Shown: positions 1,697-33,782 of the stretch, piece by piece
Numbering within the stretch: position 1 is the first letter of the stretch
Layout: each line of letters opens with the position of its first letter
From: a virus
Reading direction: 5' to 3' (one strand)
IMG/VR virus record: IMGVR_UViG_3300050119_000091
Coordinates: 1 to 64,000 of that record
Length of the DNA: 64,000 nucleotides
The notes under the pieces: model-generated
Database searches by the model: none
Told to the model about the DNA's origin: nothing
What the model saw: the letters and a program-made list of their open reading frames with translations, nothing else
Position numbers and translations under genes: made by a program

Positions 1697-4480
1697 TTAC
1701 TGGCTCATGTCCAGCCAAAAGACATTTCCACCTACATATTCCACATCAAGAACAAAAGAATATGGGCCATAAGCATTTGTAAGGCCTGACCCAGTACTGT
1801 AGTGACTACGAATCTCATATGGCCCGCTTGTAACACCTCCACAAATACACGTGAGTGTATTGGTCGAGCTAGCTGCCAGTGTGTGAATCAGCTCAACGTA
1901 GAACCGTAACCCATCTGCAAGTGGCTGTGGGAAGGTTACAACAATCGCATTGTTAGCACTTCCCGATGATTCATGAGCGTAGTTAAGGGTAGCTCCGTTC
2001 ACCTGACCATTTAACGAAACCACTCCGTTTCCAGTGGAGATATTCCCCCCATCCGGATTGAGGTCGAGTGGTACATTCCCACTAGTCCCGTTAGTCCCCT
2101 GAATGACAGCATGACTATTAGTGGTATTGATGCCTATCTGCGCTTCATACGTACCACTTCCACTACCGAATTGTAAGTTCTCATTTCCAGCCGGGGCTTG
2201 TTGTGGACTGCGGACCACCATATTCCCCGTATAGTAGTCGTACCCTGTTAGTACAGTTAGTACTGAACTTCCAATGGACGTGATATTGACGGTTAGTCCG
2301 GTTCCAGTCCCGCCCGTCGTCGCAAGATTAGTGGCTACCGAATAGCCAATACCGCCAGATGAGTATACTGGAGTAAGTGCCGTTACAGATCCACCTGAAA
2401 CTGTCAATGTCAATTTTCCCCGGAGTGCCCCGGACTGCGTAACGGTCACAATATCTCCGTTCGTATAGCCACCTGCCGCACCGGAATTCACCGTCGCTGA
2501 AGAAATTGCAGTGGTCGAAGTAAACTCTAGCCCAGTCCGAATAGTATCGTTTATATGCCACGGCTCAAGTGACACAATTCCACTAGTGTTATTCTTAACG
2601 CTAAACTGCCCAGTTCCAATAAATGGCTGCTGTGTGGTCCCCCAGCCTACATCATTGTTACTACCTGCTAAAGCAGAACATCCTCCTGTTGCGGCGGTAG
2701 TTGGAATGAATTCATTGGGAGATCGATAGGTAACCGTATTGTAAGTACCGCACACATCATAAAAACCGTTTGTCGCGGCTGTCTGGTTTTCCATGTCGTC
2801 CGGAGGGCCAAACGTCGAACCGAAAACCTGCCGTCCTGTTAAGTCGCCCATTTGGATACCGGGGCCTACATTTCCCTCAAAATGTCCACCAGTCTGAATA
2901 AATCCCGAACCTGCAAGAAGTTCCCCGCCGCCTACGTTGTAAGTCATCTGAGGGGCATATAGCTCAATACCATTTCCATCTGATTGAGCGTGTACATTTA
3001 ACCCCCACCCTTGATTCCCCGTACCAACGGGACTGTAAAACCGCATCGCATTGTTATTCCCATTGCACTGAAACGAGAAAGGTGCAGTGTGTGTGTAAGC
3101 AGGTGTGATCGCAAGATGGCTAAGTGTGGTCTGATTTGAATAAAGGTATTCTACCTCTTCCTGACGACCAGTGCCGGGCTCCAACATCAACACCTGACAG
3201 TTTCCAGTCCCCATTGTAAAACCGGCCTGAATAACAGAGGTCGCTGTAATGGTCGCATAGCTAGATGGAGACACTGTCGTAAGAGAAGTATTCAGTGGTG
3301 TCTGAAGACTGTCGATGTCGATACCGTCCGAGGAGCAAAACTGTCCTCCACTGTTATTGAAAATCGACAAGTACCCACCAGCGACAACAAAACACTCAGT
3401 CCCCACGTATCCGCTGCTGGCACTCGCGTTGCCGCCGCCATTGACAAGAAAATTATTGAATGTCGCCCTAGCAGCATAATCGTGGAACATGACGAACGGA
3501 GATGTGCCTGCTTTGGCGATTAAAGTACTTCCCGTTGTTGATACCAGATTCGTAGTCGTTACGGCTGAGAGTCCAATCCCATTTATAACAACTCCTTGTG
3601 CAGATTGTGGCAGGTAGACCGTGGAAGAAATCGTGGACTGGCAGGTGTGAGTTACGTTCTGACCCGGGCCAATGGAGTTGTATGTATTCTGTACTGCAAC
3701 CGTATCGTCATTTCCGCCACATAGTGCTCCCCACCACTGCGGATAGAGCGTGAAGATTTTCGCACTCGCCAGACTCACCGTTCCTCCCGCGCTCAAATCG
3801 AAGTGCTGCGTCAGGTCGCCATCGAAGGAGCCAGTGAGCGTGACGGTTTGCCCGGAAGCGGGCTTAATGATTCCGTGCGCGAGTGCCTGAATATTGCACG
3901 CGATGGATTGTGTTGTAAGCCCGCTCCACGTTCGGGTTAGGTACAGCGTGCCTGTTCCCGCTCCAGTGCAGGCCAGCGCCAACGTCGCGTAGTTCGCGTC
4001 ACAGGTTGCCCCAAGCGGACACCCCGCAGACGCTCCTACGTTGATTGGGTAAGGTCCGTAAGTACCACCTCCAGCCGTCGCCGGGACTTGGAGGAAGTAA
4101 TTGTATTGCCCTGGGAGTGCCCAGAATCCAGCTCCGCCCTGACCGTCAGCGGTTGAAAGGCACGCGCCACCCGTCGCGGGTGTCAATTGCGCGGTAGTTG
4201 GGCACGGAGTTCCGGCCGTATAGCTCGTGTACGTCGTCGCTGGACTCGCCAGGCAAGAAGTCAGGGTAGTGACCGCCCCGCCGCAAACATTCAGCGTCGA
4301 TCCCGGCAAAACAAGCAACGGGCATTGTTTTCCCGCCGCGCACGATGAACTTACGGTGTCCACCGTGGTATCGAAACGAACCGCCTGCGCGTTCGCTGGA
4401 CGGCCCAATAGGACAAGTGCCAGCCACCCCAAAACGAGAGCGTCAATCAAGCGTATGCGGCAGTAGTGGGGTGATTTCAC
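1697..4480 (-). CDS. Exported beta-helix (pectate-lyase-like) protein, tailspike-like
   Basis: 927 residues. The N-terminus is a Sec signal peptide: basic residues, a Leu/Val-rich core (about 12-27) and a cut site after PANA. Around residue 245 the string PQWWGALCGGNDDT matches the entry segment of phage and bacterial parallel beta-helix proteins (PEWWGA..G..DDT), and the rest is Gly/Thr/Ser-rich and repetitive. Starting with GTG, it overlaps the preceding stop (4477-4480). The gene sits among early genes rather than with the virion genes. Much of 1700-3700 is visibly AT-richer than its neighbours, suggesting acquisition. It may act on host-surface polysaccharide; catalytic residues cannot be named. 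Confidence 0.7.
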   Translation of the reverse strand: MKSPHYCRIRLIDALVLGWLALVLLGRPANAQAVRFDTTVDTVSSSCAAGKQCPLLVLPGSTLNVCGGAVTTLTSCLASPATTYTSYTAGTPCPTTAQLTPATGGACLSTADGQGGAGFWALPGQYNYFLQVPATAGGGTYGPYPINVGASAGCPLGATCDANYATLALACTGAGTGTLYLTRTWSGLTTQSIACNIQALAHGIIKPASGQTVTLTGSFDGDLTQHFDLSAGGTVSLASAKIFTLYPQWWGALCGGNDDTVAVQNTYNSIGPGQNVTHTCQSTISSTVYLPQSAQGVVINGIGLSAVTTTNLVSTTGSTLIAKAGTSPFVMFHDYAARATFNNFLVNGGGNASASSGYVGTECFVVAGGYLSIFNNSGGQFCSSDGIDIDSLQTPLNTSLTTVSPSSYATITATSVIQAGFTMGTGNCQVLMLEPGTGRQEEVEYLYSNQTTLSHLAITPAYTHTAPFSFQCNGNNNAMRFYSPVGTGNQGWGLNVHAQSDGNGIELYAPQMTYNVGGGELLAGSGFIQTGGHFEGNVGPGIQMGDLTGRQVFGSTFGPPDDMENQTAATNGFYDVCGTYNTVTYRSPNEFIPTTAATGGCSALAGSNNDVGWGTTQQPFIGTGQFSVKNNTSGIVSLEPWHINDTIRTGLEFTSTTAISSATVNSGAAGGYTNGDIVTVTQSGALRGKLTLTVSGGSVTALTPVYSSGGIGYSVATNLATTGGTGTGLTVNITSIGSSVLTVLTGYDYYTGNMVVRSPQQAPAGNENLQFGSGSGTYEAQIGINTTNSHAVIQGTNGTSGNVPLDLNPDGGNISTGNGVVSLNGQVNGATLNYAHESSGSANNAIVVTFPQPLADGLRFYVELIHTLAASSTNTLTCICGGVTSGPYEIRSHYSTGSGLTNAYGPYSFVLDVEYVGGNVFWLDMSQ

Positions 4481-8452: not shown

Positions 8453-9429
8453 ACCGCAACCTCCGTTAATTCCAGTTGCCCCTGCGACCGTGACTCAATC
8501 GCCGCGTCCAGGTTATCTCCTGCGTTTCGGAAATACGATTCTTTCAATTCGCTTCCCACGAATCGCCGCTGCTCCTGAAGCGCCACATAGCCAGAACTTC
8601 CAATCCCGGTGAACGGATCGAAAACCACGTCGCGGGGATTGCTCCACAACTCAACAGCGCGGCGAATCACCGTTAACTGAAGTGGGCAAATATGCTTGGA
8701 ATCTTCCGCGTCCCGAGCGCCCGCGCGTTGCAGTGTGTCCGATGGGTTGATGTCCATCCAGACTGGTGAAGCGTAGTTCTGCCAGACGTAGTGTGAGTAC
8801 TTGTTTTTCTTCTGGTCCGCGTGGCGCTCCGCCTTTGGTTCGTCTTCCGGATTTCCGATCCACTTCGTCAGACCGCGCGGATGCGCAACTGGCTCCGGAT
8901 TCGTCCCGAGCTTCCGCATGATTACGAGTTGATCCGGAATCCCCTGGCGGCACATGGACGAATCTTTCACTATCTGCTTATGCGCCAGCCCAAGCGCGTG
9001 CGTTCGCGTGGCCGCTATCAGCGGGTCTTTCCATATCGTGACGCGGGAGTGGAAAACAAAGCCGTGCTTCTGAAACGCGCGAATGATATCCCCAGGGAAG
9101 TCATACAGCCCAATAACGCCGTCATGCTCGATGCTGGTCGGAAGCTCCATGCAGTGAGTGGCCACCAGACGCCCCGGCATCATGATACGCGCCAACTCCG
9201 AAAGCATGAAGTCTATGCCGTTGAAGAAGTCGTTTTTGGTTCGGATATTGCTCATATCCTCGGTTGCGTCCGTGTATTGATACAACGAGACAAATGGCCA
9301 AGATGAGACGCAGAAATGTATACTATCTGACGGGATGCCGCGAACCACACGCACGCAATCGCCGTGGTATAGCGCATACTCTTCGGTGATCTTCTGATCT
9401 ATTACGGAGTCAGTGGGTACGGTAGTCAA
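8449..9429 (-). CDS. DNA amino-methyltransferase (N4/N6 type) with altered catalytic motif
   Basis: 326 residues from a TTG at 9429 with AAGGGG nine bases upstream. It belongs to the phage methyltransferase group with motif IV before the SAM motif: DPFTGIGSSG at 271-280 is motif I, and HCMELPTS, DGVIGLYDFPGDIIRAF and KDSSMCRQGIPD are group hallmarks. Motif IV, normally (S/D)PP(F/Y), reads SSWPF at 42-46, so a Trp replaces the first Pro. Activity is therefore uncertain. An HNH gene overlaps its start by 20 bases, so expression may depend on that gene. Confidence 0.8.
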   Translation of the reverse strand: MTTVPTDSVIDQKITEEYALYHGDCVRVVRGIPSDSIHFCVSSWPFVSLYQYTDATEDMSNIRTKNDFFNGIDFMLSELARIMMPGRLVATHCMELPTSIEHDGVIGLYDFPGDIIRAFQKHGFVFHSRVTIWKDPLIAATRTHALGLAHKQIVKDSSMCRQGIPDQLVIMRKLGTNPEPVAHPRGLTKWIGNPEDEPKAERHADQKKNKYSHYVWQNYASPVWMDINPSDTLQRAGARDAEDSKHICPLQLTVIRRAVELWSNPRDVVFDPFTGIGSSGYVALQEQRRFVGSELKESYFRNAGDNLDAAIESRSQGQLELTEVAV

Positions 9430-10195
9430 TGTGTTTTTCCCCTTTTGATTGGTTGCACCGACCGCATAGCGGCTGGATGTTGTCTATATTGTTCGATCCT
9501 CCCATTATGAGAGGAATTACGTGGTCCACCGTGAGCCTAATATCCGGCTCTTTCTTGCCGCACCTTAGACACATAAACCCCGCCGCCATCTTCAATGAAT
9601 CCCACTCATGCCTTGTGTACGCTCCGCCATTCGCCAGTTTCCTAGCCCTCCGAGCGTGAACGTAAGACAATGCCTTGTCGCGATTTTCTTTAAACCACCT
9701 CCGCACCATAGCGTTATGCTTCTCTGGATTTGCGGCGTACAACTCCCGGCTCTTTCGGTTGATGGCATCTCTATTTGCTTCGGCGTAGCGTGCCCACGTT
9801 TCCTTAAATCGCCCCGGGAACTTCTCTCGGCTCTCTTTTTGGCGATTAAGAATGGCCTCTTTGTGCGATTCGTAGTGCCTCTTTTGGTGGGCTGAGAATC
9901 GGGATGGGTTTAGTTTTCGAGCCGCCTTGACCCTATCGGACAGTTCTTTCTTGTGGATTTTCTGATACCTACCCCGGATTGCTTTGGTGGCGTCAGGATG
10001 GTCGCGCCTCCACTGCGCCGAGTAGGCCATGTGCTTTTCTTTATTGTTCTCGTAGTAAAGCCTCTTATCCTGATTGGTACACGAACGGCACTGCGGGAAT
10101 TTTCCGTCGTGACGTGACCTGTCGTTATGGAAGTTGTCTAACGGTTGAGGTGTAGAGCATTTTGAGCACGTTTTTAGGGTTGCGCTGTCAACCAT
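9410..10195 (-). CDS. HNH endonuclease (free-standing homing type)
   Basis: 261 residues. The N-terminal zinc ribbon has CSKC (10-13) and CRSC (about 36-39), a long Arg/Lys/Glu helical middle follows, and the C-terminal HNH has CLRC, TVDHVIPL, GGSNNIDNIQPLCGRCN. GGAGG lies seven bases before the ATG. Both ends overlap neighbours: 22 bases with the helicase and 20 with the methyltransferase. This is how mobile HNH genes are often wedged between phage genes. Confidence 0.85.
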   Translation of the reverse strand: MVDSATLKTCSKCSTPQPLDNFHNDRSRHDGKFPQCRSCTNQDKRLYYENNKEKHMAYSAQWRRDHPDATKAIRGRYQKIHKKELSDRVKAARKLNPSRFSAHQKRHYESHKEAILNRQKESREKFPGRFKETWARYAEANRDAINRKSRELYAANPEKHNAMVRRWFKENRDKALSYVHARRARKLANGGAYTRHEWDSLKMAAGFMCLRCGKKEPDIRLTVDHVIPLIMGGSNNIDNIQPLCGRCNQSKGEKHIDYRTH

Positions 10196-12162
10196 ACAGG
10201 CACCTCCATCGGCATTTGATGATCGTAGTTTGCGGATTTATTTGCGCGTTGCGCCAACTGCTCGACCCGCATAGCCAGCGACATTTCCCGCTGCAATTCT
10301 TCGTATGCCGCTTCTTTTTCGCGAATCGCGCTCATGATCGCGCCTTCGGTTTCGGCCATGATGATATGGGCGTTGACCGCGCGGACCTGCCCGAAGCGCC
10401 AGCACCGACGGATAGCTTGGAACATAGACTCGAAGGAATAATTCATTCCCACGAAGATCATATTGCGGCAATGCTGGAAATTTAAGCCCCATCCGGCTAC
10501 AGATGGCTTTGTCAGCAGAATCGGCCTGTCACCACGAAGCCATGCCACGATTCTTCGTTCTTTTTCGTCCGGCGACATGCTCCCGTCAATCGAGATACAG
10601 TCATCGCCGAGTGCCTTACGCATCGGCTCCTGCTCGTAGTTTGTGTTGCACCAAATGATCCAACTTTCCCTCAAGGTAGGCGATTGTTCTGCGCAGCAGG
10701 GCGACGTCGTTTTTGAATTTTCCGATCCCCATATTGCAGTTGGAGCATAGTATGCCTCTGAGCTTTCCCGTTGCGTGGCAATGGTCGATGTGCGGGAAGA
10801 TTCGAGGATTTCCGATGTCTGAAAATCCGCAGATTGCACATTTTCTTCCGTGGGCGTCAAACCATTCACTGAATAACTCGACGGTAAGTCCGTATTGTCT
10901 GAGGTCTTGGTTTTTTGCTTTTGTTGGGTTGTTTTTCGCCCATTCCTTGACTTTGGATTTGTGTGACTCACGATAGTCTGCGTCAGATCGGTATCTATCC
11001 CTTCTTGCAGCGTTAATTCTGGCTCGTTGTTCAGGTGTTCGCTTGCCCCATTTGGCCTCTTTGTTTTTTGCGTAGTACTCCCGCATGTAGATCCTGTTTT
11101 CTTCTGGGGTTCTGGCGTTTTTCTCCCAATTGGCCCGTAGTCGGGCGGCGTATTCTGGGTCGCTGGTAAATTTTCGGCGTCGATTCTCTTCGTATTCTCT
11201 TTTCCAGTTTGACATTCTGACAGTTTAACACTATTGGAGATTGAGTCCAAAATTAGACTAGCGGCCTTCTGTATCCTATCCGTGGCCGTCAGCCGCAATT
11301 CTTTATGCAGCCCGGTGGCGCTCATGTCGGGGCACCTGAACAGCATTCCTTCTGTGTTTACGGAATGATCCACAGCGACGATATGCTCCTGAAGATTGAG
11401 CGGCGGCAGCACATAGGCGCTGTCATTGTAGGGGCCGATGTCGGACGGCTTACTGACGCACACGCAGAACTGAGACAGAAACTCGAAGAACGGTTTCTTG
11501 CCGTGGCCCTTCAGCGACCACTTGGAAGTCTGTCCGCCGTTGTGTTCAAAAAACATAGCCAGCATTTGCGTTCGGCTCATCACATCCAGAAGCTCCGCGT
11601 GCGTCCCAAGCTCCGCGTGTTCGTTTGGAGAAGGAGTGGCACTGGAACACAACTTGAATCGAGTTTTTGAAAGTCGCTCAATGAGTCCCTGAAACAGTTT
11701 CGAGTTGAAGTCCTTGATACACGAGGATTCATCGAGAGAAATACCCGCGAACCGTGACAGGTCCAGATTGTCAAGGCTGTCGTAGTTGGTGACGTTGATG
11801 CCGTATTTCACGTCCGAGTCTTTCCGGCAGAGTGTCACCTGAATTCCAAACTTATCCGCTTCGCGCATGAACTGCTGTGCGACCGCTAGCGGGGCCGCAA
11901 TCAGGCAATCTCCGCCAGTGTGGATACAGACGTGACGACACCACTCAAGTTGTATCGGCCCTTTGCCAAGTCCCGTATTCGCAAACACTGCCGCTTTGCC
12001 GCGCTTGCAGGCCCACTGCACGATATCGGCCTGGAACTCGTGCTTCGGGTCCAGCATCATCGGATTAATGTCCAACCGCTTGATATCGAACCCGCACGGA
12101 TTCGCGAAGATTCTCTTTGTTGCCAGGAACTCTTCGTATGTAGATGTCAAAATATTCCCCAT
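10174..12162 (-). CDS. SNF2/DEAD-like helicase with an insertion that encodes an HNH gene
   Basis: 662 residues from the ATG at 12162. Motif I is ANTGLGKG at 61-68 (the usual GKT/S is GKG) and motif II is LDESSCIK. The C-terminal half has WIIWCNTNYEQ, ISIDGSMSPDEKERRI and FQAIRRCWRFGQ (motif VI), as in phage helicases next to modification genes. Between about residues 305 and 498 lies a Ser/Thr/Asn/Gln-rich, low-complexity stretch with no helicase motif; these bases encode the HNH protein at 10616-11215 in another frame. Whether the helicase works with this insertion is open. The frame upstream of 12162 shadows the MTase gene. Confidence 0.75.
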   Translation of the reverse strand: MGNILTSTYEEFLATKRIFANPCGFDIKRLDINPMMLDPKHEFQADIVQWACKRGKAAVFANTGLGKGPIQLEWCRHVCIHTGGDCLIAAPLAVAQQFMREADKFGIQVTLCRKDSDVKYGINVTNYDSLDNLDLSRFAGISLDESSCIKDFNSKLFQGLIERLSKTRFKLCSSATPSPNEHAELGTHAELLDVMSRTQMLAMFFEHNGGQTSKWSLKGHGKKPFFEFLSQFCVCVSKPSDIGPYNDSAYVLPPLNLQEHIVAVDHSVNTEGMLFRCPDMSATGLHKELRLTATDRIQKAASLILDSISNSVKLSECQTGKENTKRIDAENLPATQNTPPDYGPIGRKTPEPQKKTGSTCGSTTQKTKRPNGASEHLNNEPELTLQEGIDTDLTQTIVSHTNPKSRNGRKTTQQKQKTKTSDNTDLPSSYSVNGLTPTEENVQSADFQTSEILESSRTSTIATQRESSEAYYAPTAIWGSENSKTTSPCCAEQSPTLRESWIIWCNTNYEQEPMRKALGDDCISIDGSMSPDEKERRIVAWLRGDRPILLTKPSVAGWGLNFQHCRNMIFVGMNYSFESMFQAIRRCWRFGQVRAVNAHIIMAETEGAIMSAIREKEAAYEELQREMSLAMRVEQLAQRANKSANYDHQMPMEVPVWLTAQP
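10616..11215 (-). CDS. Endonuclease VII-like HNH nuclease nested in the helicase gene
   Basis: 199 residues. Repeated RxxYRSDADYRESHK-like helices precede a recombination-endonuclease-VII domain: KCAICGFSD, FPHIDHCHATGKLRGILC, CNMGIGKF. It lies wholly inside the helicase gene in a different frame, and its last 17 residues are read from helicase-coding bases. TTGGAC and TAAACT spaced by 17 lie just before the ATG, six bases from it, with no Shine-Dalgarno, so a leaderless start is plausible. Homing nucleases usually split or flank genes; nesting with both frames open is unusual. Confidence 0.8.
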   Translation of the reverse strand: MSNWKREYEENRRRKFTSDPEYAARLRANWEKNARTPEENRIYMREYYAKNKEAKWGKRTPEQRARINAARRDRYRSDADYRESHKSKVKEWAKNNPTKAKNQDLRQYGLTVELFSEWFDAHGRKCAICGFSDIGNPRIFPHIDHCHATGKLRGILCSNCNMGIGKFKNDVALLRRTIAYLEGKLDHLVQHKLRAGADA

Positions 12163-32948: not shown

Positions 32949-33782
32949 ATGCCAGCCAAGGGCGGACATCAGTCCGAAGAAGCGAAAGAAGCAATCAGGG
33001 CGTACCACAAGGGCCGAGAGTTTTCCCCGGAGCATCGGGCGAGACTCTCGGCTTCTTTACGTGGGAAGAAGCGCGCCCCGCGATCCGAAGAGACAAAAAG
33101 GAAAATCAAGGAGGCATGCTCTGGACAAAAACGCACCCCTGAGCAAATAGAGAAAAACAGGGTGTCGCATTTAGGGCAACCCAGTGCACGCAAGGGGGTG
33201 GTGCTATCTGAAGAAACCAAGCAAAAGATACGGGATGCACGAGTGATCCAGGGGAATCCAAAATTCAATCTTCGGGGCATTACTCAGGCTCAGGTAGATG
33301 AGGCCACCGCCAACGGGTTGCGGTGGTGTGCTGGGCAATGCAAGGCATTTATCCCGCGAGAGAGGTTCTATAAAAACGGTGAAACCAAGAGGACGGTATG
33401 TTCCTCATGTGGGCTTTCATGCAATCGCACAATGGGGCGATCTGGAGTCTATAAAAAATATGGAGTCACCGAAGAGTGGTATCAAGTTACCTTATCATCC
33501 CAAAACGGCCAATGCGCTTTGTGTCCAGCGGTGGTTCCTCCAGTTGATATGGCAGCGCCATCAGGGAAAGGGAAGCATCACTATCTATCAATTGACCATG
33601 ACCACGAAACAGGTAAGGCTAGGGCGCTCTTGTGTTCCAGGTGCAACTTGGCGCTTCATCGGGTGGAGTATGTCGATGGGTGGGCGCAGCGGGCTGTTGA
33701 GTATCTGAAAAAGCACGGTAGCCAGATTGGCAAAGAGCGCAAGCGATCTCCGGAACCTCAGTCAACGGTGGTAAGATTATGA
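32949..33782 (+). CDS. Endonuclease VII-like HNH nuclease with NUMOD repeats
   Basis: 277 residues. Three to four NUMOD3-type repeats come first (SEEAKEAIRAYHKGREFSPEHR, SEETKRKIKEACSGQKR, SEETKQKIRDARV), then the catalytic domain: QNGQCALCPAV, LSIDHDHETGKARALLCSRCN. No Shine-Dalgarno; GGCATT (32926-32931) and AATGCC (32948-32953) form an inverted repeat covering the ATG. It sits right after the capsid gene. Confidence 0.85.
   Translation: MPAKGGHQSEEAKEAIRAYHKGREFSPEHRARLSASLRGKKRAPRSEETKRKIKEACSGQKRTPEQIEKNRVSHLGQPSARKGVVLSEETKQKIRDARVIQGNPKFNLRGITQAQVDEATANGLRWCAGQCKAFIPRERFYKNGETKRTVCSSCGLSCNRTMGRSGVYKKYGVTEEWYQVTLSSQNGQCALCPAVVPPVDMAAPSGKGKHHYLSIDHDHETGKARALLCSRCNLALHRVEYVDGWAQRAVEYLKKHGSQIGKERKRSPEPQSTVVRL

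Follow-up and report, generated by a model that had tools for sequence, protein, structure and literature searches.

An Endonuclease VII-type HNH gene lies out of frame inside the gene for a SNF2-type DNA helicase in the window (the whole 64,000-nucleotide stretch of viral DNA that was analysed), and HNH genes embedded in this way are shown to avoid stop codons in the reading frame of their helicase host. We interpret the insert as a homing cassette that would need no splicing, made up of a promoter and a nuclease ORF, with the helicase being read through it in another frame, and give this reading a probability of about 0.8. The original prediction, that a homing nuclease entered the gene and that the host frame has been kept open, is supported by both of the comparisons proposed with it, namely with helicases that lack the insert and of stop codons across HNH homologues.

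The helicase gene (10174..12162, minus strand) encodes 662 amino acids, with all core motifs and with the insert in frame. It is annotated as Helicase_C (Pfam) and as a DNA helicase (PHROG), and the best matches to its predicted structure are SNF2 remodellers and SNF2 ATPases. As predicted, the frame runs through the insert, with no stop codon on the minus strand from 12372 to 10174 and a natural start near 12162. Insert-less viral relatives are 66–70% identical to the window helicase over residues 1–304 and 55–61% identical over residues 499–662, while residues ~305–498 have no counterpart (194 codons in the window vs 5 to 7 in these relatives). The residues that had been singled out are thus indeed an insert, of ~189 codons net (10669..11250, minus strand). 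It lies directly ahead of motif IV, where a linker joins the two RecA-like lobes. The insert is of low complexity and is predicted to be disordered, with an AlphaFold pLDDT <50 over residues 312–497 and confident RecA-like lobes on both sides; rows from annotated phage records were left out of the alignments for structure prediction. Insert-less relatives exist at high identity, such as L001 and L003 for the window and Gordonia phage Holliday for Gordonia phage Squiddly, and the C-terminal half of the helicase has kept a third-position-biased divergence.

The embedded ORF (10616..11215, minus strand) encodes 199 amino acids, with the helicase gene in its +1 frame. The claim that the same bases encode an Endonuclease VII-like HNH protein in another frame is confirmed by a match to Pfam Endonuclease_7 (PF02945) with E=2.4e-20 and 72.6 bits, against a gathering cutoff of 23.6. 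A profile search with this protein gave matches to T4 endonuclease VII and Hpy99I, with which it shares an HNH/beta-beta-alpha-metal core with cysteine pairs. Unlike in these two enzymes, the core is preceded by an N-terminal helical array of ~100 residues in the AlphaFold model (mean pLDDT 85), and no PDB match for the fold model was found at E<=0.001. Seven residues are invariant across the HNH family (C126, C129, D144, H145, C157, C160 and N161). The last ~17 codons (10616..10668, minus strand) lie within the bases of helicase motif IV in the alignment of relatives, so the nuclease C-terminus is read from helicase bases, as had been noticed. At the right end of the insert in L013, L070, L071, L098 and L099, the HNH stop codon TGA spans the junction and uses the host Glu/Asp codon before motif IV, which places the end of the element at the host motif.

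Viral contigs and genome assemblies were searched with the window and related HNH proteins, and copies were removed, which left 22 non-redundant HNH genes that are flanked on both sides by halves of the same helicase family. As loci were collected by HNH protein similarity and embedding was defined by the flanking helicase halves, openness of the helicase frame was not a selection criterion. The first scan of genome collections gave no loci and a wider scan gave six; a plasmid scan returned partial endonuclease VII matches only. Members of the embedded set are mutually related, at 35–60% protein identity. Sixteen are inserted at the same site as in the window, before motif IV (site 1), and six (L020, L074, L100, L105, L175 and L176) between motifs IV and V (site 2). 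The cultured Gordonia phages Squiddly and Malisha carry HNH proteins that are 44–45% identical to that of the window, with the helicase site and the relative frame both unchanged; their insert-bearing gene has been deposited as one helicase CDS, with no annotation of the nuclease. In L067, L088, L120 and L162, one alternative frame is open over part of the HNH gene, but these candidates were rejected as no recognised host gene spans it.

Over the 183 HNH codons of the window insert, there are no stops in the helicase frame and eight in the third frame. Permutation of synonymous codons within this gene alone leads to an expectation of 3.2 stops, with P(0)=0.008. Across the embedded set, the helicase frame is stop-free in 20 of 22 cases over 144–187 HNH codons, and the third frame has 1–19 stops. 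The helicase is in +1 relative to HNH in 17 of these 20 and in +2 in L073, L112 and L148, where +2 is open and +1 has 3–6 stops; the open frame is therefore that of the host, whichever it may be. Of the free-standing relatives that reach 90 codons (83 after removal of redundancy), a single one lacks stops in +1 and a single one in +2, so that the stop avoidance looked for across homologues recurs in embedded and not in free-standing copies. For the 20 open cases, the synonymous-codon permutation gave a summed log10 P of −24.7 (per-gene P(0) from 0.0008 to 0.73), which is conservative because adapted codon usage is kept, yet does not combine tests that are fully independent, since members of the set are related. 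The base-composition null gave −63.6. Several single cases are unremarkable under the conservative null, such as L027 (P=0.73) and L070 (P=0.63), and the force of the test hence comes from the whole set, which bears out the proposal that the host frame is kept open. The +1 frame is intrinsically poor in stops (~3.3 per 100 codons vs ~7.5 in the third frame, in GC-matched controls), as would suit an open frame that is a compositional accident of the HNH family. We give such an accident next to no credence, given the stops in free-standing relatives, the permutation result, and the three embedded cases that are open in the other frame.

There is little constraint on the helicase frame beyond the absence of stops. 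Where two HNH proteins agree, their helicase-frame residues agree at 48.3%, vs 46.1% expected from permuted codons, and the same test on free-standing genes gave 40.3% vs 39.8% expected. Almost no constraint thus acts on the helicase-frame residues of the insert other than that imposed by the HNH protein. Insertions between the lobes are common in SNF2 proteins, and the present one, which has the same position, might be a helicase domain with a function and under selection for its sequence, in which case the HNH gene would be a relic. This is extremely improbable, as the helicase-frame residues are hardly conserved beyond the HNH-forced level, the insert is predicted to be disordered, and it is the core histidines, cysteines, and asparagine of HNH that are invariant.

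The other two embedded cases, L075 and L174, are located at site 1 and contain 10 and 7 stops in the helicase frame, at the random rate, and openness is hence not obligatory. Their helicase halves are still in register, and in both the downstream half is equipped at motif IV with its own start codon and a strong Shine-Dalgarno site (TTG with dG −10.7 in L075; ATG with dG −6.3 in L174). They look like genes in pieces, as in Aeh1 nrdA, and because of these start signals we read them as split genes. Relatives with the insert and with stops in the helicase frame, which the original prediction had set against its own reading, therefore do occur, but these look like split genes and do not speak for splicing. 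These two cases and the phage precedent of Aeh1 nrdA (PMC2988022) also favour the view that the helicase is made as two polypeptides, with a start inside the gene for the C-terminal half and an open frame that is incidental. The window junction, though, offers no start codon other than a TTG that lacks a ribosome site (dG 0.2), a strong in-frame ribosome site at motif IV was found in 1 of the 20 open cases (L100), and chance openness is rejected for the set as a whole, which makes this view unlikely.

One HNH clade (99/96 support) brings together the window (+1 open), L073 (+2 open), L095, L075, and L174. L095 was considered as a third broken case and rejected, as its helicase is intact and its HNH gene is intergenic, between the helicase and a methylase; it was used as a control and has nine stops in the +1 frame. 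Openness tracks location in this mixed clade, and the contrasts within it indicate that openness is determined by the way in which the host accommodates the insert rather than by descent of the HNH gene. The clade can be regarded as a natural experiment comprising embedded-open +1, embedded-open +2, embedded-split, and intergenic states.

HNH genes often reside in group I introns, and the window nuclease resembles intron-encoded HNH homing endonucleases in nuclease type and in its placement in a conserved gene. This, together with the proximity of the site to a conserved motif, would be compatible with a self-splicing intron or an intein that is removed, the open frame being a by-product or an accident. 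Unlike in group I introns, however, only ~35 nt at the left end of the insert lie outside the HNH ORF, which leaves no room for a separate ribozyme, and Rfam searches gave no match at E<=1 for 10400–11600 and none at the gathering score for nine relatives. With regard to an intein, Pfam detected no Hint/splicing domain in the helicase frame, where Helicase_C is the only match, and the insert is predicted to be disordered. Removal would furthermore not need an open host frame. We consider an intron or intein very unlikely, in agreement with the earlier observation that there is too little sequence for the former and no sign of the ends of the latter. L174, a contig from a Methanosaeta MAG, matches HEARO RNA (HNH-associated RNA and ORF) at its end (3192–3327), but this match was rejected as an intron candidate, being sub-threshold and elsewhere on the contig.

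The left edge of most +1 elements resembles a sigma-70 promoter, from which the nuclease is probably expressed. In the window, a −10-like box (TAAACT; 11222..11227, minus strand), preceded by TGT as in an extended −10, ends 6 nt before the HNH start codon ATG, and the box in turn is preceded, with a spacing of 17 nt, by a −35-like TTGGAC (11245..11250, minus strand) at the element's left edge. The box TAAACTGGCA or a near variant is present upstream of most +1 elements. A TAnnnT hexamer that ends exactly 6 nt before the start was found in ten embedded cases, including the window, vs 2 of 122 free-standing first starts, and starts with this arrangement are mostly without a ribosome site; in L099 and L175, the box is 33 nt upstream of the start and a Shine-Dalgarno site is present. 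Among 14 elements, 8 have TTG at a distance of 16–18 nt on the upstream side of the box, vs 5% in the background, and 9 have TG before it. Consensus-like promoters can be found in L074 (TTGACA-17-TAAATT) and L175 (TTGACA-17-TAAACT). The window −35 is weak (3 of 6), for which reason its box was not reported by a general promoter scan, and the case for a promoter comes from the comparison of relatives. A leaderless or short-leader mRNA transcribed from this promoter would be the simplest reading, and common descent could be an alternative reason for the shared box.

The cassette could have arisen when an Endonuclease VII-type HNH gene entered the inter-lobe linker of a phage SNF2 helicase, before motif IV. 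The element would then consist of a small promoter at its left edge, a start codon 6 nt past the −10 box, and an ORF over the remaining length, with the nuclease made from its own leaderless mRNA. Since the helicase frame is maintained open, we infer that the helicase is translated straight through the insert, which would form a disordered linker of ~190 residues between functional lobes. The nuclease would spread by cutting insert-less alleles and survive only where the host gene stays usable, so that selection on the host frame would essentially be limited to the avoidance of stops.

Homing is suggested by the HNH family itself, the patchy distribution of the insert, and a possible trace of co-conversion. 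Insert-less alleles exist, and in the helicase tree insert-bearing and insert-less members are interleaved (the window and L094 with L001 and L003; Squiddly with Holliday; L027 with L012), while HNH and helicase identities are weakly correlated (r=0.25). Squiddly and Malisha share ~100% identity in the insert and 78–92% within a few hundred bases on either side; outside the insert region, Squiddly is nearer to the insert-less Holliday. Such a tract would be the expected, if indirect, trace of co-conversion during homing.

The closest known system is the ShiLan domain, an HNH that lies out of frame in a phage methylase with the host frame open, for which its authors detected no signal of splicing and put forward leaderless translation (Arsenault, Gosselin and Gogarten, 2025; PMC11855218). 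The window HNH likewise is out of the host frame, fills its insert next to conserved host residues, has a patchy distribution, and is associated with an open host frame and with neither intron nor intein. ShiLan belongs to Pfam HNH_3, unlike the present Endonuclease_7 family, which also differs in using both alternative host frames across many lineages. Judged from these sequences, the two are the same kind of element in separate lineages. The same paper described a hidden out-of-frame HNH in Pacc40 gp60 (PMC11855218). This HNH sits in a helicase domain that is homologous to that of the window (35% identity) and, unlike the window HNH, has no Pfam match. The insertion sites of ShiLan and Pacc40 both differ from those of the present family; in Pacc40 (L091:3866-4345), the HNH follows 'QRPSDI', which adds a third site of insertion to the two above for this helicase family, and the methylase part of gp60 contains what looks like an intein. 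New with respect to ShiLan are the nuclease family, the sites, the use of both frames, the many lineages, the stop-avoidance statistics, the split-gene relatives, and the promoter proposal. Free-standing HNH homing genes inside conserved phage genes without splicing are also exemplified by mobE in Aeh1 nrdA and mobA in T4 gene 60, where the host is split into two polypeptides (PMC2988022). L075 and L174 resemble the nrdA kind, in contrast to the window, with its open host frame and no ribosome site at the junction.

It remains an even bet whether these cases represent a wider class of homing element without intron or intein, in which a promoter and a nuclease ORF suffice and the second frame is kept open by evolution for translation of the host protein, with decay into split genes as an alternative outcome. 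Such elements would have originated more than once, in either alternative frame, within helicase and probably also terminase genes. In L051 (1922-4291), an Endonuclease_7 HNH is located out of frame inside a large terminase gene, between the ATPase and nuclease domains, and the terminase frame is open through it (permutation P=0.059). The usual view is that a homing gene within a coding sequence depends on splicing or else splits its host. The present family points to a way for them to live inside other genes without splicing, as a third outcome at scale, in at least 20 related phage lineages, and with a nuclease that annotators currently miss. It makes it possible to test how the choice of codons alone may keep a selfish gene harmless, and how gene overlaps originate, with the cultured phages Squiddly and Malisha and the insert-less Holliday as test material.

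Two other genes of nuclease families were observed in the window. The first (9410-10195, minus strand; 261 amino acids; HNH_5/HNH) is located between the helicase and an N6/N4 DNA methylase, overlaps both neighbours (10174-10195 with the helicase and 9410-9429 with the methylase), and is probably a free-standing homing gene. The second (32949-33782, plus strand; 277 amino acids) is another Endonuclease VII-type gene of the same phage, which also matches homing endonuclease PHROGs and shares 31% identity with the embedded HNH over the core.
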